From Rhodospirillaceae bacterium (lineage in GTDB: Bacteria > Pseudomonadota > Alphaproteobacteria > Dongiales > Dongiaceae): DNA of 36,063 nt. The stretch is taken from contig JAEUKV010000008.1 of NCBI GenBank assembly GCA_016794165.1, forward strand, positions 1 to 36,063. Reading direction: 5' to 3'. The translations under genes were made by a program, and so were the position numbers. The first letter of the stretch is position 1. Every line of letters begins with the position of its first letter. The notes beneath the pieces were generated by a model, which saw nothing but the letters and a program-made list of their open reading frames with translations, was not told the origin of the DNA and made no database searches. Shown one piece after another: positions 4,427 through 35,775 of the stretch.

Positions 4427-5965
4427 ATGTCACGCGAAGCAGCGCGCGAAGCGCGCGGTCGCCGCAATGTTCGCCAGGCGCGCGGACTGAAGCAATTGCC
4501 CTGGCGCAACCATCGCAACAACTACGACCCGATCCGGGTACTTTCCGACGACCAGATCGAGGCCATCCATCTGACATCGCTGCGCATCCTTTCGGAGCTC
4601 GGTATCGAGTTCCTGGAAGAGAACGCCCTGCGTATCCTGAAAGAGAACGGCGCCGACGTGACGCCCGGCTCCAATCTGGTCCGCTTCGATCCGGCCCTGA
4701 TCATGGAAAAGATCAGAACCGTGCCGAAGACATTCACGCTGCATGCCCGCAACCCGGCACACAATCTTTCCTTCGGCGAGAACCATATCAATTTCGGCTC
4801 TGTCGCCTCAGCCCCCAATGTCTCCGATCTCGACAAGGGACGCCGGCCTGGCAATGTCGAGGATTACGGCAATCTGCTGCGCCTCGCACAGTCGCTGAAT
4901 GCGGTGCAGTTCCTCGGCGGCTACCCGGTCGAGCCCGCCGACCTGCCCCCGGCGACGCGGCATCTCGATGCGCTCTACATGGCCGCCACCCTGACCGACA
5001 AGGTCTGGCACCCCTATTCGCTCGGCAACGAGCGGATCGAGGATGCCATCGAGCTGATGGCGCTAACGCGCGGCATCTCGAAGGAGCAACTGGCCAAGGA
5101 ACCCAGCGTCTTCTCGATCATCAACAGCAACTCGCCCCTGCGCCTGGATACGCCCATGCTCCAGGGCCTGCAGGCGATGGCGAAAGCCGGGCAGCCTATC
5201 GTGCTGACTCCCTTCACGCTCTCCGGGGCCATGGCGCCGGCAACCGTCGCCGGCGCGCTGGCTCAGGCCAACGCGGAAGCGTTGGCGGGCCTCGCCTTCA
5301 CGCAGATGGTCAATCCAGGCGTGCCCTGCGTCTATGGCGGCTTTACTTCGAATGTTGACATGAAAACCGGCGCGCCCGCTTTCGGCACGCCGGAATACAC
5401 GCGCGCCGCCATGGCCGGTGGACAATTGGCGCGCCGCTATGGCTTCCCCTACCGCTCCTCGAATGCCTGTGCCGCCAACGCGGTCGATGCGCAGGCGGCC
5501 TATGAATCCGAGATGTCGCTGTGGGGCGCCGTCATGGGGCATGCCAATCTCATCCTGCATGGTGCCGGCTGGATGGAAGGTGGCCTCGTTGCCTCGTTCG
5601 AAAAGATGGTGATCGATGCCGAGATGATTCAGTCAATGAGCGAGTTTCTGCTACCGCTCGACACCTCGGAAGATGCGCTTGGCTTCGAGGCGATGAAGGA
5701 AGTCGGTCCTGGCGGCCATTTCTTCGGCTGCGCCCATACCATGGCGCGCTACGAGACGGCATTTTACTCGCCGCTGGTCTCCGACTGGCGCAACTTTGAG
5801 ACTTGGCGCCTCGCTGGCGCCCAGGATGCGGCGCAGCGGGCAAACGCGCTGTGGAAGCAGGCGTTGTCGGATTACGAACGGCCGCCGATCGATCCCGCGG
5901 TGGATGAAGCGATGCAGGCCTTCGTTGCCAGGCGGAAGGAAGAAGGCGGAGTCAAGCAGATCTGA
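4427..5965 (+). CDS. MttB-superfamily methyltransferase, non-pyrrolysine type
   Basis: This 512-residue protein belongs to the trimethylamine methyltransferase (MttB) superfamily. It has the N-terminal RILSELGIEFL block, a TIM-barrel body with GGFTSNVDMKTGAPAFGTPE, and the C-terminal GPGGHFFGCAHTM block. Classical trimethylamine MttB needs a read-through amber codon for pyrrolysine, but this frame has none. It therefore belongs with the MtgB-like members, some of which demethylate glycine betaine or other quaternary amines and pass the methyl group to a corrinoid protein. No corrinoid protein or reactivase lies in the window, so the partner must be elsewhere and the substrate is unknown. The ATG at 4427 has GAGGGG six bases upstream. 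Confidence 0.85.
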   Translation: MSREAAREARGRRNVRQARGLKQLPWRNHRNNYDPIRVLSDDQIEAIHLTSLRILSELGIEFLEENALRILKENGADVTPGSNLVRFDPALIMEKIRTVPKTFTLHARNPAHNLSFGENHINFGSVASAPNVSDLDKGRRPGNVEDYGNLLRLAQSLNAVQFLGGYPVEPADLPPATRHLDALYMAATLTDKVWHPYSLGNERIEDAIELMALTRGISKEQLAKEPSVFSIINSNSPLRLDTPMLQGLQAMAKAGQPIVLTPFTLSGAMAPATVAGALAQANAEALAGLAFTQMVNPGVPCVYGGFTSNVDMKTGAPAFGTPEYTRAAMAGGQLARRYGFPYRSSNACAANAVDAQAAYESEMSLWGAVMGHANLILHGAGWMEGGLVASFEKMVIDAEMIQSMSEFLLPLDTSEDALGFEAMKEVGPGGHFFGCAHTMARYETAFYSPLVSDWRNFETWRLAGAQDAAQRANALWKQALSDYERPPIDPAVDEAMQAFVARRKEEGGVKQI

Positions 5966-6019: not shown

Positions 6020-6976
6020 CTAGGCGAGGTCCGAATAGGGGTGGAGCAGTGGCTCCTTCGGGTGCAGGAAGTATTTCTTGGCCAGCGCCGCGTAACCCTG
6101 GACGAAGTAATTGCCATTGGCCGCCAGCAGGGCCGGCTTCATCTCCCGGTAGCGGCTTGGCCGGCGGTGCCAGGCCAGGCCAGGCTCCGCATGGTGCAGG
6201 GCATGGAGATTGTTCCACAGGAACATCACGCTCCAGAACGGGCCGGCTTCCAGGATGATGGTGCGCTGCCTCTCGTCAGGCATGGCGCGATGCTCCGCGA
6301 AGGAACGCACCAGTGCCATTGATGTGCCGGGATAGGCAAACAGTGCGACATAGGCCCAGAAAGGAATGTCGCAGATACCGATCACCCAAAAGAGAATAAG
6401 TGCGGTACTCGGCAAGTGCCAGACCCAGGCCCGCAAGCGCTGGCCGTTGCCCTCGCGCAAGTCGCGCAGCAGGTACCGCAGGACGTTGACTGTATAATAC
6501 GCCGGACCCAGCAGCATGCGACCCGCCAGTGTCCGCATGGCCTGGCGCACCAGCCGATGCGGCGCCGACATGCCAGCCAGTTGCGCCGCCGTCAGGTAAT
6601 TCGATTCCGGATCGATCAACGGTGCAGTCAGGTCTTCGTCGATGTGATGCTTGAGGTGGCTGTGAACATAGTTGTCATAGGGCATCCACAGCCAGAGGGC
6701 CCAGCCGCTGAAGAGGCGGTTGAGCGTCGGCGACTGGAAGGGATAACCGTGGACTGCCTCATGCTGAAGCGAGCCATGGAGGCAGATGACCGAAGCGCCC
6801 AATGGCAGCACAACCCACCACGGCAGATCGCGATAGAACCAGGTGAGCAGGAGAAACGCGGCATAGACACTGAAACCGAGAAAAATGGTAGGCATATCCG
6901 CCCGATAGTCGTGGCGGCCAACGTCACCCTTGTTTCTGATCCGCGCGGTGCTGGCGGATGCGGTCCCGGTCGACAT
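6020..6976 (-). CDS. Membrane fatty acid desaturase / hydroxylase family protein
   Basis: From the ATG at 6976 the protein has 318 residues. Longer in-frame readings run into the divergent gene at 7121 and are not credible. Three histidine boxes are present: H67, H72 and H76 (HGSLQHEAVH), H105, H107, H110 and H111 (HSHLKHH), and H258, H261 and H262 (HALHH), plus H229. With about four to six hydrophobic segments, this is the diiron membrane desaturase fold. Such enzymes use O2 and electrons from ferredoxin or cytochrome b5 to introduce double bonds or hydroxyl groups into lipids. The exact substrate cannot be read from the sequence. It converges with the MttB-like gene and is divergent from the GFA gene. 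Confidence 0.85.
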   Translation of the reverse strand: MSTGTASASTARIRNKGDVGRHDYRADMPTIFLGFSVYAAFLLLTWFYRDLPWWVVLPLGASVICLHGSLQHEAVHGYPFQSPTLNRLFSGWALWLWMPYDNYVHSHLKHHIDEDLTAPLIDPESNYLTAAQLAGMSAPHRLVRQAMRTLAGRMLLGPAYYTVNVLRYLLRDLREGNGQRLRAWVWHLPSTALILFWVIGICDIPFWAYVALFAYPGTSMALVRSFAEHRAMPDERQRTIILEAGPFWSVMFLWNNLHALHHAEPGLAWHRRPSRYREMKPALLAANGNYFVQGYAALAKKYFLHPKEPLLHPYSDLA

Positions 6977-7120
6977 GTTTCCCAAAAGCCTAAAGAAGGT
7001 GCGGATATAGGTAACGAAAATCTCGCAAACCGGCAATCGAGAAAAACTACTGCCGTCGTGCCGTCGGGTCGGTATGCTCGCGCGGAAGTAAAAAGTGATG
7101 GTTAAGAACGGGGCGGGTGC

Positions 7121-7969
7121 ATGAAACGGGGTCAGTGCCTGTGTGGAGGGGTGAGTTTCGATTTGCCGGGTCCGCTGAAGGCGCCAACCGCATGCCATTG
7201 CGCCATGTGCCGGCGTTGGCATGGCGCCCTTGGGGTCTATACCTCGACCCCGAACACGGATTTTCGTCTGCGGGGCGCCGGCCTGGTGGGGTGGTATCGG
7301 TCCGGCCCCAATTCCGAGCGCGGCTTCTGCCGGCAGTGCGGCGCCTCCCTGTTCTGGCGCGAGGTCGGCGGCAGCCATACCGACATCGCCATGGGGGCGA
7401 TCGACCCGCCGACCGGCCTTTCGCTTGCCTGTCATATCTGGGTCGCGCATCGTGGCGACTATTGCGACCTCGCCGACGGGCTTCCACAATATGCCGAATC
7501 ATCCGCCGATGCCTCCCCGATCGCACCGGTGCCGGCCCCGGCGTCGGCAGTCGTGCAACCCGATTTACATCGGGGCGGGTGCCTGTGTGGCGCCATCACG
7601 CTGACCATCGCCGGCCCGATGCGTGACATCAGCACCTGTCATTGCCGGCAATGCCTGCGCTGGCACGGTCATGCGCCGGCCTACAGCAAGGCCAGATGGT
7701 CGCAGATCGCCCTCGAAGGCGCCGATCATCTTCACTGGTATGTCTCCTCCGAGACGGCGCGCCGCGGATCCTGCGATGTTTGCGGATCGAGTCTGTTCTG
7801 GGAACGGCGCAATGCCGATGCCGTGTCCATCGCGGCCGGTGCGCTCGACTCACCGACCGGTCTGCGCGTACAGCATCACATCTTTACCGCCGACCGGGAG
7901 GATTATGCGCCAATCGCCGATCGACTGCCGCAATTCTCCGGCAGTGGCGGCAACGCACTGCCCTTCTGA
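7121..7969 (+). CDS. Tandem GFA/CENP-V zinc-domain protein
   Basis: The 282-residue protein contains two copies of the GFA (glutathione-dependent formaldehyde-activating / CENP-V) zinc domain. Copy one (about residues 1-125) has GQCLCGGVSF, ACHCAMCRRWHG and FCRQCGASLFW. Copy two (about 145-280) has GGCLCGAITL, TCHCRQCLRWHG and SCDVCGSSLFW. Each copy keeps the cysteine pattern C-x-C ... C-x-C-x2-C ... C-x2-C that binds zinc. Most family members are single domains of 120-160 residues, so this is an in-frame duplication or fusion. Despite the family name, most members have no proven formaldehyde role. It lies 42 bases upstream of the PhnD-like gene and may lead that operon. Confidence 0.85.
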   Translation: MKRGQCLCGGVSFDLPGPLKAPTACHCAMCRRWHGALGVYTSTPNTDFRLRGAGLVGWYRSGPNSERGFCRQCGASLFWREVGGSHTDIAMGAIDPPTGLSLACHIWVAHRGDYCDLADGLPQYAESSADASPIAPVPAPASAVVQPDLHRGGCLCGAITLTIAGPMRDISTCHCRQCLRWHGHAPAYSKARWSQIALEGADHLHWYVSSETARRGSCDVCGSSLFWERRNADAVSIAAGALDSPTGLRVQHHIFTADREDYAPIADRLPQFSGSGGNALPF

Positions 7970-8011
7970 CTATCCTCAAACTAAACCGAATTCTTAGTGG
8001 GTTCCGCGTTC

Positions 8012-8815
8012 ATGATTGTTGCCCTGCCGATGTACGACCTGCCGGAAATCGCCGCGGCCACCGACGCCTTCTGGCAGGGCCTGCGCGGGCATCTGTCGGC
8101 GGCCGGCCTCACCGGGCTTCCCGTCGCGCTGAGCCGGCCGGAGGAACTCTACATTCACTGGCTGGATCCGCAGCTGGCACTGTCACAGACCTGCGGCTAT
8201 CCGCTCACCCATATGCTGCGCGGCCGTATCCGCTACCTGGCGACACCATACTATGACGCCGATGGGTGCCGCGGCCCGCGCTATCGCAGCTTCGTGATCG
8301 TGCGCGCGGACGATGCGATCGAACAGGGGCGCGATCTCGCCGGGCGCAAGGCGGCTTTCAACGGCACGGATTCCCAGTCCGGCTACAACATCCTGAAGCA
8401 TTACCTGAATCGCCAGGGTGTGCGGCCGGGATCGCTGGCCGGTGCTGTCGAGAGCGGCGGCCACCGCCGCTCGGTGGCGCTGGTGAAGTCGGGCGGCGCC
8501 GATTTCTGCGCCGTGGACTGCGTGACCTGGGCGCTCCTTCAGGCGCATGCGCCGGAGGAAACCGAGGGGTTGCGCGTCCTCGACAAGACCTCAAGCGCCC
8601 CGAGCCTGCCCTTTGTCACCAGCCGCGATACACCAATCGAGAACATTGCTAGTCTGCGCTCCGGTCTGGGTGCGGCGATGACCGATCCGGGGCTTGCCGA
8701 TTGCCGCGCCACTCTTCTCCTGGAGTCGATCACGGTGCTGGACGAAGACGCCTATGAGGTGATTCTGGAACAGGAACGGGAAAGCTCCGCCGCCGGCTGG
8801 TCGGTGCTGGCATGA
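8012..8815 (+). CDS. PhnD-like substrate-binding domain protein without signal peptide
   Basis: The ATG at 8012 gives 267 residues starting MIVALPMYDLPE. A GTG at 7997 would add five. Several features match the phosphate/phosphite/phosphonate-binding (PhnD-like, PF12974-type) fold: the N-terminal strand with PMYD, the block CGYPLTHMLRGR, YRSFVIVRAD, the segment LAGRKAAFNGTDSQSGYNILKHYL, and DFCAVDCVTWALL. Members of ABC uptake systems carry a signal peptide, but here the conserved domain begins at residue 1, so the protein should stay in the cytoplasm. No ABC permease or ATPase lies nearby. Its stop overlaps the EamA gene start by four bases (8812-8815). A cytosolic sensor or ligand-binding role is inference. 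Confidence 0.7.
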   Translation: MIVALPMYDLPEIAAATDAFWQGLRGHLSAAGLTGLPVALSRPEELYIHWLDPQLALSQTCGYPLTHMLRGRIRYLATPYYDADGCRGPRYRSFVIVRADDAIEQGRDLAGRKAAFNGTDSQSGYNILKHYLNRQGVRPGSLAGAVESGGHRRSVALVKSGGADFCAVDCVTWALLQAHAPEETEGLRVLDKTSSAPSLPFVTSRDTPIENIASLRSGLGAAMTDPGLADCRATLLLESITVLDEDAYEVILEQERESSAAGWSVLA

Positions 8816-9771
8816 GCAGCGCGGGCAATATGGCAGCGCCCGCCGGGAATGGTGGTGTTCTGCTGCCCAGCGCGGCGCTCATCGCATCGACCCTGTTCTG
8901 GGGATCGATGTGGATCGGCCTGCGTGGAATCGATGCCGCCGGTATCCCGGCGACCCTCGGCGGAACGCTGGTCTATGGGCTGCCGGCCATCCTGCTGCTG
9001 CCGGTCGTCTTTCTCCGCCGCCGGCAGATGCTGGCGGGCGGCGGGCGCCTGCTGCTCTGCGCCGGACCGCTGGCGATGTGCAATATCCTCTTCGCCATGG
9101 CGGTGGTGACCGGCGAGGTCGGCATGGTGGTGCTGATGTTCTATCTCTCGCCGATCTGGTCGACGGTCTTCGAGCGCGTCTTCATGCGCGTGCCGATCTC
9201 GCCCCTGCGCTTTGCCGGGATCGCACTCGCCATCTGCGGCCTCTTGATCCTGCAGGGCGGCAACGGTCGCTGGCCCTGGCCCGCCAACATGTCGGAATGG
9301 ATGGCAGTCGGCGCTGGAATCTGCTGGGCGGTGGCGCTGCTGGCGGCGCGGCTCTGGCCCAATATCTCCGTGGTCGACAAGAGCATCCTGCAATTCGTCT
9401 GTGCGCTGCCCATTGGCCTGGTTGTCTTCGCGCTGGTCAGCACCTTCATGCTGCCCACCGCCTTGCCGGACAGCAGCGTGCTGATGGCGGCGATGCCCTG
9501 GGTATTGGCGACTATCCTGCTCTGGGTGACGCCGTCGCTGGTCCTCAGTCTCTGGGGCGCAGCGCGCCTGTCGCCCGGCCGCGCCAACATCCTGATGATG
9601 TTCGAAGTCGTGGTGGGCGTCGGGACTGGTGTCTGGCTGGCCGGCGAGGAGCTCGGCTGGAACAAGATACTGGGCGGCATCCTCATCATCAGTGCCAGCG
9701 TACTGGAAAGCTGGCAGGCCACCCGCGAAGTGCGCGATGCACGTCGCCAGAGACTGAGTGCCGCGAAATGA
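8812..9771 (+). CDS. EamA/DMT-family transporter
   Basis: This 319-residue protein has about ten membrane segments arranged as two EamA halves. The signature ASTLFWGSMWIGLRGI is near the N-terminus, and the second half ends with EVVVGVGTGVWLAGEELGWNKILGG, a typical EamA tail. Proteins of this family are inner-membrane metabolite exporters or importers, and the substrate is unknown. The gene overlaps the PhnD-like gene before it and the TusA-like gene after it by four bases each (ATGA), so the three are almost certainly co-translated. The pairing with TusA suggests a sulfur-containing or reduced substrate, but that is speculation. Confidence 0.85.
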   Translation: MSSAGNMAAPAGNGGVLLPSAALIASTLFWGSMWIGLRGIDAAGIPATLGGTLVYGLPAILLLPVVFLRRRQMLAGGGRLLLCAGPLAMCNILFAMAVVTGEVGMVVLMFYLSPIWSTVFERVFMRVPISPLRFAGIALAICGLLILQGGNGRWPWPANMSEWMAVGAGICWAVALLAARLWPNISVVDKSILQFVCALPIGLVVFALVSTFMLPTALPDSSVLMAAMPWVLATILLWVTPSLVLSLWGAARLSPGRANILMMFEVVVGVGTGVWLAGEELGWNKILGGILIISASVLESWQATREVRDARRQRLSAAK

Positions 9772-9995
9772 TCCGGAACTACGATGCCCGCGGCCTGAAA
9801 TGCCCGATCCCGGTATTGAAGGCCCGCAAGCTGATCAAGGATCTCGCCCCCGGCGACATCCTTGAAGTGGACGCCACCGATCCCGGCGCCCCGAAGGACT
9901 TCGCCCATTTCTGCGAAGTGACGGGGAACAGGCTGCTCGATGGCAGCGAGCCTGAACCGGGCGTGTTCCGGATCAGGATTGAGGTGGCGGGCTAG
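9768..9995 (+). CDS. TusA/SirA-family sulfur carrier protein
   Basis: The 75-residue protein starts at the ATG at 9768 inside the EamA stop codon. It has the family motif LKCPIPVLKARK, with Cys12 as the presumed persulfide-carrying residue in a CPxP turn, and the C-terminal block F-H/C-x-V-T-G-N-x-L ending in a beta strand. TusA proteins pass sulfane sulfur between partners, for example in tRNA 2-thiouridine formation, molybdenum cofactor synthesis or sulfur oxidation. As it lies in an operon with a transporter and a PhnD-like protein, this copy may serve a dedicated route rather than tRNA thiolation. The gene ends six bases before the converging MscS gene. Confidence 0.85.
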   Translation: MIRNYDARGLKCPIPVLKARKLIKDLAPGDILEVDATDPGAPKDFAHFCEVTGNRLLDGSEPEPGVFRIRIEVAG

Positions 9996-12808: not shown

Positions 12809-13969
12809 TCAGTTGGTGGTGGCGTCGTTCTGCCCCGGTGTCTCGGGCTCCGGCCGCAGCGAGGCGGGGAGGAAGCGGGTGACGCCCTGCTGGTCATAAT
12901 AGCGCAGGGCCCCCGGATGGAAGGGAACACTCACACCTGCCAGCGCCAGGTTGAGGTCGAGGGCCTTGCCGGTGGCGGATGCGAGGTCCTGGAGCTTGCG
13001 GCTGGTCATGGCCCATACCGCGCGGGTGAGTTCGTAGGTCGTCTGCTCATCCAGATGTTTCGAAACCAGCCAGACGGCGACCACTTCCAGGGTCGGTGTC
13101 TGTCCGACACCCTTGAACCGGTCGTCTCGGATCAGCCCCTTGGTGTAATAGGGCGTGTTCTTGGCGATTTCGGTCGCAGTTTCACCTTCGATTGGCAGCA
13201 AACGGATCGGCGTGGCTTCGGCAAGCGCGGTGACATCGCGGCTGTCCGGGGCATCGACCACGACCATGGCGTCGAGTTTGCCGTCCGCCAGTGACTGCCC
13301 GGCCGTGGCAACATCGAGGTAGTTGGGCTTGTATCGCTTGAGGGTCAGGCCGTAATGGGCCAGCACCTGGCGCGCGGTCAGAAGATTGTCACTGCCCTCC
13401 GGCCCAAGATTGACCCGCTTGCCCTTCAGGCCGGCGACCTCGGTGATCTTTGAGTCAGCCGGCACGATGATCTTGACGTTGATACGGCCCAATCCGGCGA
13501 TAGCGCGGAAGTCCTTGGCCGGCCCGGCGGATTTGAAGACGTCCTTGCCGGCAAAGGCGAGATAGGCGATGTCGGCCTGGGCCACGGCGGATTCAATCGT
13601 CTCGTTGCGCAGCTGGCCGAGATTGTCGATCGACCCGGTCGAGGTCTGTGCCAAGCCGATCATGCCGGGAATGCCGCAGGAACCGCCTTCCTCACAGCTG
13701 CGCGAACCGGGCGGGTTGCTGATGGCGCCGCTGATCAGGCCGGCGAGATCTGAGAGGGCCGTACCGGGGGCCCCGGCGCCGATCCGGAAATAGCTGAGGT
13801 CCTGGGCATTGGCGGCGGGGACGCGGCTGGCGCCATGCGTGCCGAAATCAAGACGCGAGAAGCCGAATGCGCCAATCCCGGCGGCTGCGCCCAGACCCAG
13901 AAGAAGCGCGCGCCGCCCCAGCAACCTGCGGGTCGCTGGCGTGGTGTTCTTCAGGAGGAAATTGGACAA
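12809..13969 (-). CDS. TAXI-family TRAP transporter solute-binding protein (orphan)
   Basis: The 386-residue protein has an N-terminal export signal with paired arginines (TRRLLGRRALLLGLG) and a hydrophobic run, so Tat or Sec export is possible. The mature part has TAXI-family blocks: YFRIGAGAPGTALSDLAG, AQADIAYLAFAGKDVF, LKGKRVNLGPEGSDN and the C-terminal PFHPGALRYYDQQG. These proteins bind organic acids or glutamate-like ligands in the periplasm for a DctM-type permease. No permease gene lies next to it, so it either works with a distant membrane component or has a sensing role. The farthest in-frame start is a TTG at 13969 with only a weak GGCAGG upstream, so the start is uncertain. SCEEGGSC could form a small disulfide loop. 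Confidence 0.8.
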   Translation of the reverse strand: MSNFLLKNTTPATRRLLGRRALLLGLGAAAGIGAFGFSRLDFGTHGASRVPAANAQDLSYFRIGAGAPGTALSDLAGLISGAISNPPGSRSCEEGGSCGIPGMIGLAQTSTGSIDNLGQLRNETIESAVAQADIAYLAFAGKDVFKSAGPAKDFRAIAGLGRINVKIIVPADSKITEVAGLKGKRVNLGPEGSDNLLTARQVLAHYGLTLKRYKPNYLDVATAGQSLADGKLDAMVVVDAPDSRDVTALAEATPIRLLPIEGETATEIAKNTPYYTKGLIRDDRFKGVGQTPTLEVVAVWLVSKHLDEQTTYELTRAVWAMTSRKLQDLASATGKALDLNLALAGVSVPFHPGALRYYDQQGVTRFLPASLRPEPETPGQNDATTN

Positions 13970-32253: not shown

Positions 32254-34170
32254 TCAGGCCCGAGCGGCATGGCGACTGTCCTTGGCCGCGATTGCGCGTT
32301 CGACATAGTCGATCAGTGATGCCAGTGCGGCTTCCGGTGATACTTCGGCAGTATCGAGAACGAGATTGGGCCGTTCCGGTGCCTCATAAGGCGAGTCGAT
32401 GCCGGTGAAGTTGCGGATCTCGCCGGCGCGGGCCCGGGCATAGAGGCCCTTGGGGTCGCGCGCCTCGCAGGTGGCGAGGTCGGCCTTCACATGCACCTCG
32501 TGGAAATTCTCGCCGACGATGGCACGCGCCCGGTCGCGCTCGGCCGCGAAGGGCGAGATCAGCGAGGCGATCACGATGAGGCCGGCATCGGCGAACAGCT
32601 TTGCCATCTCGGCGGTGCGGCGGATGTTCTCGGCGCGTGCCACCGGACCAAAGCCGAGATCGCTGTTGAGGCCGCTGCGCAGCGTGTCGCCGTCGAGCAC
32701 ATAGGCCTGGCGGCCCCGGGCGAAAAGCTCGCGTTCCAGCGCCATGGCGAGGGTGGACTTGCCGGAGCCCGAGAGGCCGGTCAGCCAGATCACCGCGCCG
32801 TCATGGCCATTGGCGGCGGCGCGCGCGGCGCGGGTGACATGATGGCTGGGGCTGAAGAGGTGACGCGGTTCCACCGCCAGTGTCGCTTCCCCGGCGCGAC
32901 CCAGGATCACGGCGCCGCCGACGATGTCGCCATTGCGCGTCAGCACGGCGCGGCCGGTTCTGGCAAATTCCTCGGCAAGGTCCAGAGCCATCAGTTGTCG
33001 GCTGCGCACGAGGACCTCGGCGATGCCGTTATGCGGCACCCGGTCGGCAACCTGGCGATTAAGGGAGTCGACATCGATCACGGCGCGGATGCCCTCGACG
33101 GCGACCGTGTATTCGGCCGTCGCAACCTTGAGGCCGATGCGGTCGCCGGGCTCCAGCGGTGCGCTGTCCAGCCAGAACAGGCGCAGCACGGCCTCATGGG
33201 TGAGATGCGGCTGGCGCTCGGGATGGGCGGCCACATGGCCGCGCTGGATGAAGAGCTCGTCATCGAGGGTGAGGGCGACCGACTGCCCGGCCGCGGCAGC
33301 GATCCGGGGGGCGGCATTCCAGCTCTCGATGCTGGCGACACGCGCCGATTTGCCAGTGGGTGCGAAGGTGAGGGTGTCGCCCACCTTGACGCGGCCGCTC
33401 TCGATGCGCCCCACGACGAGCCGGCGATGGTCGAACTTGAACACGTCCTGGATGGGCAGGCGCAGCGGCTGTTCCGTGGCGGGCTTCGCGGCGTCGAATC
33501 CGTCCAGCAGATCGACCACCGTTTCGCCGTCATACCAGGGCGTCCGGTCCGAGCGGCTTGCAATGTTGTCGCCATGGCGCGCCGAGATCGGCACGATGGC
33601 TTGCGGGATGAGACCAAGCTCGGCGAGGAAGGCGGTGATCTCGTCCGCCACCGCCTGGAAGCGGGCGGGATCGAAATCGATGAGGTCGATCTTGTTGACG
33701 ATGACGGCAACCTGGCGCAACCCCAGCAGCTGGAGGATGAGGGCGTGCCGGCGCGATTGTTCGCGCACGCCCTCGGCGGCATCGATCACCAGGAGTGCCG
33801 CCTGGGCCTGCGCCACGCCGGAGACGGCGTTCTTCAGGAACTCCTTGTGCCCGGGGGCGTCGATGATGACATAGGGCCGCCTGCGGGTCTGGAAGAAGAT
33901 CTGCGTGGTGTCGATGGTGATGCCCTGGTCGCGCTCGGCCTGGAAGGAGTCGAGCAGGAAGGACCATTCCAGCGTGCCGCCCCGCTTGTCGCTGGCGGCC
34001 TGGAGTTCGGCGAGCTTGCCGTCGGGCAGGCTGCCCGTGTCGTGGAGCAGGCGGCCGATCAGGGTCGACTTGCCGTGATCGACGTGGCCGACGATGGCGA
34101 AGGGAAAGCGCGCCTGCTGCGATGGCCGTACCGCGTCGTTGGCGGCGCTCAGGGAAGGGATGGCGTTCAT
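32254..34170 (-). CDS. cysNC: Bifunctional sulfate adenylyltransferase subunit 1 / APS kinase
   Basis: The 638-residue protein joins two enzymes. Residues 1-445 are the CysN GTPase, with the G1 loop GHVDHGKST (28-36), DAPGHKEF (104-111) and NKID (159-162), followed by two beta-barrel domains. Residues 445-638 are the CysC APS kinase, with the P-loop GLSGSGKST (465-473), LDGDTLRSGLNSDLGF, and the ISPFAAERDRAR block. CysN with CysD makes adenylylsulfate from sulfate and ATP, driven by GTP hydrolysis. CysC phosphorylates it to PAPS. Fusion is common in alphaproteobacteria (NodQ-like). The gene starts eleven bases after the cysD stop. Confidence 0.95.
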   Translation of the reverse strand: MNAIPSLSAANDAVRPSQQARFPFAIVGHVDHGKSTLIGRLLHDTGSLPDGKLAELQAASDKRGGTLEWSFLLDSFQAERDQGITIDTTQIFFQTRRRPYVIIDAPGHKEFLKNAVSGVAQAQAALLVIDAAEGVREQSRRHALILQLLGLRQVAVIVNKIDLIDFDPARFQAVADEITAFLAELGLIPQAIVPISARHGDNIASRSDRTPWYDGETVVDLLDGFDAAKPATEQPLRLPIQDVFKFDHRRLVVGRIESGRVKVGDTLTFAPTGKSARVASIESWNAAPRIAAAAGQSVALTLDDELFIQRGHVAAHPERQPHLTHEAVLRLFWLDSAPLEPGDRIGLKVATAEYTVAVEGIRAVIDVDSLNRQVADRVPHNGIAEVLVRSRQLMALDLAEEFARTGRAVLTRNGDIVGGAVILGRAGEATLAVEPRHLFSPSHHVTRAARAAANGHDGAVIWLTGLSGSGKSTLAMALERELFARGRQAYVLDGDTLRSGLNSDLGFGPVARAENIRRTAEMAKLFADAGLIVIASLISPFAAERDRARAIVGENFHEVHVKADLATCEARDPKGLYARARAGEIRNFTGIDSPYEAPERPNLVLDTAEVSPEAALASLIDYVERAIAAKDSRHAARA

Positions 34171-34181
34171 CGGTCTCGTCC

Positions 34182-34991
34182 TTACATGTAGCCGGAAGCA
34201 CGCAGGCGCTCGAAGGCGTCCTCGCGTTCGTGATCCATGGCACGGCCGGCGCGCTCCGATGTTCTGGTGGAGCGCAGCTCGGCGATGATGGCCTCGAGCG
34301 TGTCGGCGTCGGAGGCGACCGGCGCTGTGATGTCCCGGTCGCCCAACGAGCGATAGCGCTGGCCGTTGCGCGCGAAATAAAGCGGCACCAGCGGAATCTC
34401 CTCGCGCTGGACATAACGCCAGATGTCGAGTTCGGTCCAGGAGAGCAGCGGATGGATGCGCATATGCGCGCCGTCGGGCAGGCTGGCGTTGAAATGGTCC
34501 CAGAATTCGGCCGGCTGGTCGCGGAAATCCCAGGTGCTGCCATCGGCGCGGGGACTGAACACACGTTCCTTGGCGCGAGTCGCCTGCTCGTCGCGGCGGA
34601 TGCCGGCGATGATGCCCTTGAATCCGAACTCACTGAGCACGTTCTTCAGGCCCACGGTCTTGCGCGCGGCGGAGCGGGCGGCCGGCGGCAGGCTGGGATC
34701 GACACTTTCCACCGGCGGGCAGTCGCGCACGATGAGATTGAGGTTCCACTCTGCGGCATAGCGGTCGCGGAAGTCGTACATCTCCGGGAACTTGCGGCCG
34801 GTATCGACATGCACGACCGGGAAGGGGACGTGGCCGAGGAAAGCCTTCTTCGCCAGCCACAGCATGACGTTGGAATCCTTGCCCAGCGACCACAGCATGG
34901 CGATCGGTTTCAGGCGCGCATAGGCCTCGCGCAGGATGAAGATGCTCTGCGCTTCCAACTGGTCGAGGTCGGTGATCTGTTCGTGGCTCAT
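34182..34991 (-). CDS. cysD: Sulfate adenylyltransferase subunit 2
   Basis: From the ATG at 34991 the protein has 269 residues. Longer readings enter cysH. It has the PP-loop SLGKDS (35-40) of ATP-pyrophosphatases, the FPVVHVDTGRKFPEMYDFRD block, GIIAGIRRDEQATRAKER, and the C-terminal RSLGDRDITAPV and DHEREDAFERLRASGYM end, all typical of CysD. It forms the catalytic subunit of ATP sulfurylase with CysN and acts in the cytosol on sulfate and ATP. It lies ten bases after the cysH stop and is part of the cysH-cysD-cysNC unit. Confidence 0.95.
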   Translation of the reverse strand: MSHEQITDLDQLEAQSIFILREAYARLKPIAMLWSLGKDSNVMLWLAKKAFLGHVPFPVVHVDTGRKFPEMYDFRDRYAAEWNLNLIVRDCPPVESVDPSLPPAARSAARKTVGLKNVLSEFGFKGIIAGIRRDEQATRAKERVFSPRADGSTWDFRDQPAEFWDHFNASLPDGAHMRIHPLLSWTELDIWRYVQREEIPLVPLYFARNGQRYRSLGDRDITAPVASDADTLEAIIAELRSTRTSERAGRAMDHEREDAFERLRASGYM

Positions 34992-35001
34992 GGTGTTTTC
35001 G

Positions 35002-35775
35002 TCAGTTCGTGTCGGGGTTCGTACCGTCGGGGGTGCGGTGGATGCCGCATTCGGTCTTGTCGGATCCGGACCAGCGTCCGGCGCGGGCGTCTTGGTTGGC
35101 CGCCACACGGATCGTGCAGGGCTGACAACCGATCGATTTGAATCCGTCATAGACCAGCGGGTGCTGCGGCAGTTTGTACTGGCGGAAGCCGGCTTCGATG
35201 TCGGCGGCAGACCAATGCGCCAGCGGGTTGACCTTGATGCGCCCGTCCAGCAGCTCGACATGCGGCAGGGCGGCGCGGGCGCCGCTCTGGTAGCGCTTGC
35301 GGCCGGTAATCCAGGCGCCGAACGGCGCCAGCGCACGGGTAAGCGGGTCGATCTTGCGCAGCTGGCAGCAGAGGTCCGGGTTGGTCGACCACAGGGTGCC
35401 GTCGGGGTCCTGTTCCGCGATCGCCACGGGATCGGGGTCCAGGGAGCGAAGATCGGTGAACTCGAAGCGCCCCGCGAGGATGTCGCGGTACATCAGCGTT
35501 TCCATGAAATGCTTCCCGGTGTCGAGAAAAAGGATCGGCGTCGTCGGGTCGATTTCGGCCAGCAACTGCAGCAGCAGCGCGGATTCCGCCCCGAAGGAGG
35601 AAACCAGGGCGATGTCGCCCGGGAACAACTCGGTCACGGCCGCGCGCAGGATCGCGCCGGGATGGGCGCCGGCGAAGCGCGCATTCATTTCCGCCACCGC
35701 CACCGCATCCCACGCGCCGCCAGTAGGCGCCGGCATGACGGGTGTGACTGAAAAGCTGGGTTGATCGAGAGGCAT
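35002..35775 (-). CDS. cysH: Assimilatory adenylylsulfate (APS) reductase
   Basis: The 257-residue protein has the PP-loop-like SSFGAESALLL, LDTGKHF, and the C-terminal catalytic ECGIH (Cys243). It also carries Cys136-Cys137 (LCCQLRK) and Cys217-x2-Cys220 (GCQPCT), the four ligands of a 4Fe-4S cluster. That cluster marks APS reductases and is absent from the E. coli-type PAPS reductase. So sulfite would be formed from APS with thioredoxin as electron donor. This makes the CysC part of cysNC look dispensable for sulfite production, leaving PAPS for sulfotransferases. The ATG at 35775 has no strong ribosome binding site, and a start at the second Met (residue 14) is possible. Confidence 0.92.
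   Translation of the reverse strand: MPLDQPSFSVTPVMPAPTGGAWDAVAVAEMNARFAGAHPGAILRAAVTELFPGDIALVSSFGAESALLLQLLAEIDPTTPILFLDTGKHFMETLMYRDILAGRFEFTDLRSLDPDPVAIAEQDPDGTLWSTNPDLCCQLRKIDPLTRALAPFGAWITGRKRYQSGARAALPHVELLDGRIKVNPLAHWSAADIEAGFRQYKLPQHPLVYDGFKSIGCQPCTIRVAANQDARAGRWSGSDKTECGIHRTPDGTNPDTN

Follow-up and report, generated by a model that had tools for sequence, protein, structure and literature searches.

What does a binding protein of the ATP-binding cassette (ABC) type do when it stays in the cytoplasm and no ABC permease or ATPase genes lie beside its own? This question is raised by a locus in a 36,063-nucleotide stretch of DNA from a soil-type Rhodospirillaceae bacterium of the family Dongiaceae (GenBank assembly GCA_016794165.1, contig JAEUKV010000008.1, positions 1 to 36,063 of the forward strand). 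In this stretch, hereafter called the window, the gene of a PhnD-like protein is followed by the genes of an EamA transporter and of a TusA sulfur carrier, and an earlier note had read the three as one functional unit. Here, we report that the conserved partner of the PhnD-like gene is the gene of a membrane oxygenase with the fatty-acid-desaturase fold. The two belong to a conserved and apparently undescribed module, in which the PhnD-like protein is a mislabelled cytosolic member with a binding-protein fold.

The open reading frame (ORF) of the PhnD-like protein opens with GTG at 7997, a start that is doubtful. ATG 8012 is preferred because the relatives begin there, with the motif MI(A/V)xLPMYD, which gives a gene at 8012..8815 on the plus strand and a protein of 267 amino acids. 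The AlphaFold model of the 267-residue protein, made with 47 sequences, has a mean predicted local distance difference test (pLDDT) score of 97.0 and places a core strand at residues 2-4. Since these residues already form the first strand of the core, the protein has no signal peptide. It matches PF12974 (Phosphonate-bd) with 92.3 bits against a cut-off of 27 (4e-26), while it falls below the NCBIfam cut-off for PhnD (37.7 vs 261.1 bits) and below that of TIGR01098 (57.1 vs 112.05 bits). The export signal and the adjoining permease and ATPase of a PhnD-type ABC substrate-binding protein are missing. No ABC permease or ATPase was found among 25 different proteins of the window, a part of its ORFs that includes the immediate neighbours. 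A dedicated ABC transporter elsewhere in the genome was considered and rejected, as the sole other relative of the protein, on contig C270, lies beside an arsenite oxidase and a kinase/regulator pair and looks like AioX. The cytosolic location and the lack of an adjoining ABC partner, both proposed in the earlier note, are thus borne out on the corrected start, and neither a missed signal peptide nor a distant dedicated transporter came to light.

A profile search of the PDB ranked AioX first (3.5e-33), followed by ArrX, PtxB and PhnD. In structural alignments with VIA-align, the model superimposed on AioX with a Z-score of 28.0 and a root mean square deviation (RMSD) of 2.6 over 249 aligned residues, and on PhnD with a Z-score of 24.4 and an RMSD of 2.7 over 250 aligned residues; Foldseek concurs with the AioX result. 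The published pocket of AioX comprises Tyr88, Cys106, Tyr131, Ser161, Ser163, His192 and Asp210 (PMC5908839). In the profile alignment, the last six of these listed residues correspond to C61, Y91, S121, S123, H151 and D169, respectively, so that six of the seven are kept, and Tyr88 has no placed equivalent. Across the 47 sequences, C61, S121, S123, H151 and D169 are invariant and Y91 is not.

The PhnD-like protein shares its fold over its whole length with AioX, ArrX and ArxX (PDB 6eu7, 6esv and 6xab), and the pocket residues correspond. However, it differs from them in having no export signal, no adjoining AioS/AioR and another gene context, and a kinase/regulator pair is absent beside its gene. 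With PhnD and PtxB it has in common PF12974, the SxSG oxyanion motif and the histidine, whereas its cytosolic location, the additional cysteine of the pocket, the missing ABC permease and ATPase and the scores below the NCBIfam cut-offs for PhnD set it apart. The enzymes MqnA/MqnD and THI5, which are cytosolic and have a binding-protein fold, provide a precedent, with other reactions. The genome has another, AioX-like gene that adjoins arsenite oxidase on contig C270 (L200, G000:C270:8000-15182), so the window protein is not the AioX of this genome but a paralogue located in the cytosol. In that aio cluster, the large and the small subunit score above their NCBIfam cut-offs, and a sigma-54 response regulator and a histidine kinase are also present. 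One scan with single-protein patterns found no viral relatives.

The neighbourhood of the PhnD-like gene was examined in 80 named loci. They are the best 80 among 573 confirmed relatives, and the counts hence apply to the nearer members of the family. The desaturase-fold oxygenase gene is found in 62 of these loci, a regulator of the XRE type in 39, a GFA-domain gene in 30 and a gene of the MttB family in 21. HutF is present in 10 loci, HutI in 8, an amidase in 7, a sarcosine-oxidase-like flavoprotein (DAO) in 6 and HutU in 3, and 15 of the 80 have any Hut or histidine ammonia-lyase (HAL) gene. Another 11 genes of the window served as a control; searched for in the DNA of these loci, each of them turned up in 0-1 of the 72 non-Dongiaceae loci. 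The genomes of the class were also compared, with the PhnD-like protein counted as present in 27 of 240 at E<1e-29, a cut that was chosen once the results were known and that excludes 26 of the 53 genomes in which there was any match at E<=0.001. The oxygenase occurs in 23 of the 27 genomes with the protein vs 3 of the 213 without it, MttB in 24/27 vs 27/213 and HutU in 21/27 vs 37/213; the E-value cuts behind these numbers are our own, and the genomes are related, so p-values overstate the association.

In the window, the oxygenase gene lies at 6020..6976 on the minus strand, divergent from the PhnD-like gene (PF00487, 1.4e-26); its start is taken to be ATG 6976, and the searches were run with 6023-7084. 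Most Alphaproteobacteria have the two genes in divergent orientation, and in the Rhizobium, Comamonadaceae and Ewingella loci they share one strand. The histidine boxes HEAVH, HLKHH and HALHH and a further histidine are 98-100% conserved in 62 proteins. As all histidine boxes are kept in these sequences, the oxygenase likely retains the predicted active di-iron centre. A search of the PDB with the desaturase-fold protein alone gave nothing at E<=1, and there is a weak match to the beta-carotene hydroxylase CrtR.

Two further members of the module, which together with the oxygenase gene had been overlooked when the close neighbours were first described, lie next to the pair. The gene directly upstream of the PhnD-like gene (7121..7969, plus strand) encodes a double GFA-domain protein, with PF04828 matched over two stretches (5.6e-35). 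The gene at 4427..5965 on the plus strand encodes an MttB-family corrinoid methyltransferase (PF06253, 4.1e-201), which scores 668.8 bits against a cut-off of 25 and lies below TIGR02369, the pyrrolysine-type trimethylamine methyltransferase (305.3 vs 525 bits). Its PDB neighbours include the glycine betaine methyltransferase 9yce. In a tree of MttB proteins, 25 of the 29 cluster rows stand apart from a branch with 98/95 support that holds all 12 of the same-genome paralogues tested; L085, L112 and G210 group with the paralogues, and L076, which is short and has 26% identity, could not be placed. By this tree, the cluster MttB is a dedicated orthologue group, distinct from the paralogues of the same genomes.

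What, then, of the EamA and TusA genes? Both are real, as is the PhnD-like gene: EamA, of the EamA/DMT family, lies at 8812..9771 (PF00892, 1.2e-15) and TusA at 9768..9995 (PF01206, 1.7e-20), both on the plus strand, and the families are confirmed. The four-base overlaps that had been described are present at both junctions, as ATGA at 8812-8815 between the PhnD-like gene and EamA and at 9768-9771 between EamA and TusA. In a sample of 17 Dongiaceae genomes (G000-G016, G000 being the window genome), the triplet recurs in 12, so it is not confined to one strain and the grouping is beyond chance. In G010 and G014, EamA is kept and TusA does not adjoin; G007 and G008 have no EamA within 17-19 kb, and the locus of G011 stops at a contig end. 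EamA and TusA each occur in 8 of the 80 named loci, all of the Dongiaceae type, and are therefore local: they look like additions beside the PhnD-like gene made in this family. Each of the 13 Dongiaceae genomes searched, window genome included, has a single TusA gene, which in G008 and G011 lies on a different contig from the PhnD-like gene. The window TusA scores 73.1 bits with PF01206 against a cut-off of 28.6, its KCPIP provides the CPxP cysteine motif, and it is below the cut-off of the NCBIfam TusA equivalog (47.6 vs 78 bits). Because it is single-copy in 13 of 13 genomes and sometimes on another contig, TusA is probably a housekeeping sulfur carrier that is co-transcribed here. That the PhnD-like protein, EamA and TusA jointly handle a sulfur- or phosphorus-containing metabolite is favoured by the overlaps and by the recurrence in the family. 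Nevertheless, we find this proposal hardly credible: the triplet as a unit is ruled out by the single-copy TusA, which can lie elsewhere, and by the restriction of EamA and TusA to Dongiaceae-type loci, outside of which they are not neighbours. A sulfur compound as such is plausible, whereas its handling by the three proteins finds no support.

Several loci link the pair to histidine. In L070, a row consists of the genes for the oxygenase, the PhnD-like protein, a 402-residue protein, HutI, an SDR-like protein, HutG (on the minus strand), HutU and HutH, and its HutI, HutG, HutU and HutH pass their NCBIfam cut-offs. HutF is near the cluster in ten loci, including L063, L067, L071, L086, L087 and L119. 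The Dongiaceae genome G010 (L183) has HutF, a HAL without the 4-methylideneimidazole-5-one (MIO) motif, MttB, the oxygenase, two GFA genes, the PhnD-like gene and EamA. On two Rhizobium plasmids (L136 and L149), the PhnD-like gene, the oxygenase gene and a gene labelled HutH stand in a row, and the two lyases are MIO-less and 94% identical. The MIO motif (ASGDL) is missing from the lyases of L078, L136, L150 and L183, all of which are below the HutH cut-off (366-451 vs 539.15 bits), which the HutH of L070 passes.

Ergothionase, the enzyme that splits trimethylamine off ergothioneine, is likewise without MIO (PMC13405746). The lyase of L150, whose best PDB match is ergothionase 6s7j, also has the HAL fold without MIO, and it may be an enzyme of this type that acts on ergothioneine. 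In a sister subfamily of PhnD-like proteins, about 24-33% identical to the window protein, the genes next door encode lyases without MIO and a protein of the OCD family; in Martelella and Rhizobium, hutC and a glycine-betaine-type ABC transporter are present as well. The Martelella lyase scores 270.7 bits with ergothionase, which is also its best PDB match, and 229.2 bits with HutH. MIO-less relatives of HAL, which are part of the clusters for ergothioneine and its sulfonate, are thus found in the sister subfamily and in some of the oxygenase-linked clusters. We know of no pathway of ergothioneine or ergothioneine sulfonate catabolism that includes the oxygenase/GFA/XRE/MttB set. Two assignments were rejected. 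Not all of the HALs are ergothionases, as 5 of 12 carry MIO (the 13th row, L143, is no HAL), and the HutU proteins of L070 and L105 are not thiourocanate hydratases, both being below that cut-off and above the one for HutU. Contig C240 of the window genome encodes a lyase of the L136 type, which also lacks MIO, and a PhyH gene is adjacent to it. The same pairing of a MIO-less HAL gene with the gene of a PhyH-family dioxygenase is seen in L199 (G000:C240:1-12000), L193, L194, L195 and L198; several Dongia genomes have it, at a site outside the PhnD-like cluster, and the copy of the window genome is cut by the contig end.

Genes of sulfur metabolism occur near some relatives. In Methylosinus, a SoxC sulfite dehydrogenase and a cytochrome c lie beside the oxygenase-PhnD pair. 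Putative sulfate exporters of the YeiH type are present in two sister clusters, from Paracoccus and Polaromonas. LLM genes are found in Rhizobium etli, there together with SfnB, and in the Agrobacterium and Pantoea clusters.

The explanation that we favour, with a probability of about 0.38, is that the PhnD-like protein, the oxygenase, MttB and GFA, joined outside Dongiaceae by the XRE regulator, form a catabolic module for a histidine betaine that feeds the Hut pathway. It draws on gene content, linkage, co-occurrence, fold, pocket residues and the loss of MIO, from which we infer the substrate and the chemical steps. The candidate substrates are hercynine, ergothioneine or ergothioneine sulfonate, and histidine or urocanate would be delivered to the Hut pathway. 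Oxidation of the substrate, either at sulfur or at an N-methyl group, would fall to the membrane di-iron oxygenase. The Cys/Tyr/Ser/Ser/His/Asp pocket of the PhnD-like protein could bind a sulfonate- or sulfite-like oxyanion, as a carrier or as a releasing enzyme. N-methyl groups would be removed by MttB and, in some relatives, by the sarcosine-oxidase-like flavoprotein; alternatively, the MIO-less lyase may remove trimethylamine. GFA would deal with the formaldehyde, while EamA, as an exporter, and TusA, as a housekeeping protein, would be local additions. A trimethylated histidine compound is favoured over glycine betaine because it accounts better for the joint presence of MttB, MIO-less lyases, betaine transporters and Hut, and ergothioneine or its sulfonate because it would also explain the sulfur hints and the oxyanion pocket. 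A more specific form, a new aerobic ergothioneine route in which the oxygenase oxidises the thiol-imidazole, the AioX-fold protein releases or captures sulfite, MttB demethylates hercynine and Hut finishes the degradation, is distinctly unlikely. If it were true, the AioX-fold protein would be a binding protein that has become a desulfonating enzyme of the cytosol.

A number of observations weigh against a histidine-betaine module. No Hut gene was found in the window, nor any urocanase match at E<=1e-50 in the window genome (an assembly of 332 contigs), and 65 of the 80 loci have no Hut or HAL gene in the DNA examined. The HALs of L066, L070, L085, L111 and L121 carry MIO and are ordinary HutH. 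Some PhnD-like genes, those of L137 and L138 among them, have no oxygenase gene nearby, which is the case in 18 of the 80 loci. The nearest known pocket binds arsenite and phosphate; that the present one binds sulfite or a sulfonate we only infer. The sister subfamily keeps the cysteine, SxSG and the aspartate but not the pocket histidine. The sulfur hints come from few and partly distant clusters, and TusA looks like a housekeeping protein. Finally, a relative on a plasmid of Ruegeria conchae (L146) sits by arsenic genes.

The last point bears on a rival in which the PhnD-like protein is a non-catalytic cytosolic sensor. It would respond to an oxyanion such as arsenite or phosphate and modulate either the oxygenase or the XRE regulator. 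AioX, the nearest structure, is itself a binding protein turned sensor, XRE is present in 39 of the 80 loci, and the Ruegeria relative is beside arsB/arsJ. In view of the pocket and of this neighbour, a role with arsenic was weighed for the window protein, and we retain it only as a part of the sensor explanation. However, the oxygenase-PhnD pair occurs without XRE in the Rhizobium, Comamonadaceae and Ewingella loci, and the common neighbours among the markers tested are betaine and hut genes rather than ars genes, so we regard a sensor as unlikely. We hold an ordinary demethylation of glycine betaine or methylamines to be just as unlikely. MttB would then act on glycine betaine and Hut would be near since amine-catabolic genes cluster, in keeping with 9yce among the PDB neighbours of MttB and with the sarcosine-oxidase-like DAO proteins in 6 of the 80 loci. 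This would leave unexplained the MIO-less HAL beside the oxygenase-PhnD pair, the Hut genes in loci from both Alpha- and Gammaproteobacteria and an MttB that is dedicated and distinct from its paralogues.

MttB is also the difficulty for a ring-N-methylated histidine such as 3-methylhistidine, from which the oxygenase would free the methyl group as formaldehyde for GFA, with the histidine passing to Hut. The occurrence of GFA in 30 and of Hut genes in 15 of the 80 loci and the intact di-iron histidine boxes agree with this proposal, but it gives no function to MttB, to the lyases that lack MIO or to the oxyanion pocket, and we regard it as improbable. Very improbable, in our view, is a modification of membrane lipids by the desaturase-fold enzyme, with a phosphate head group bound by the PhnD-like protein. 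PF00487, the weak CrtR match and the binding of phosphonates by the PhnD family point in this direction, yet when the gene lists were inspected by eye, genes of amine catabolism were seen to recur close to the pair and genes of lipid biosynthesis were not.

As the earlier note had held, the gene set fits no described system that was found in the open-licence literature. For the PhnD-like/oxygenase set, too, no description was found in that literature, which is weak evidence of absence. In databases, these proteins are labelled 'PhnD/SsuA/transferrin family substrate-binding protein' or 'phosphate ABC transporter substrate-binding protein'. The data place the proteins so labelled in the cytosol, with a retained cysteine pocket of the AioX type and a membrane oxygenase as their companion, and a widespread and misannotated pair thus becomes directly testable. 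A histidine-betaine module would connect the fold of a binding protein with what becomes of ergothioneine and similar betaines of histidine in soil and in the sea.

Other genes accompany the PhnD-like gene in some of the relatives. The genes of a molybdenum hydroxylase pair of the xanthine-oxidase type (2Fe-2S and MoCoBD) lie beside the PhnD-like/desaturase cluster in L136, L149, L056, L058 and L188, the carriers being Rhizobium plasmids and Dongia genomes. In L137 and L138, which are Rhizobium plasmids, the PhnD-like gene follows a gene for succinate-semialdehyde dehydrogenase and a set of ABC transporter genes, with no desaturase. A second gene of the desaturase family stands between the PhnD-like gene and the urocanase gene at L105:3186-5824. 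In L146, the gene of the PhnD-like relative adjoins a DUF1045 gene and points away from an arsenic operon with ACR3, ArsJ and the ArsJ-associated GAPDH, the two being divergent.

Elsewhere in the window, on the minus strand, a second EamA gene, which is RhtA-like, lies at 392-1282. A TAXI-type TRAP solute-binding protein is encoded on this strand at 12809-13969, with no permease among the window proteins scanned. The region 32254-35775, also on the minus strand, belongs to sulfate assimilation. It encodes a protein of the CysN/C type, and it has two ORFs that overlap and each match PAPS reductase, a pattern that points to two neighbouring genes whose boundary is doubtful.

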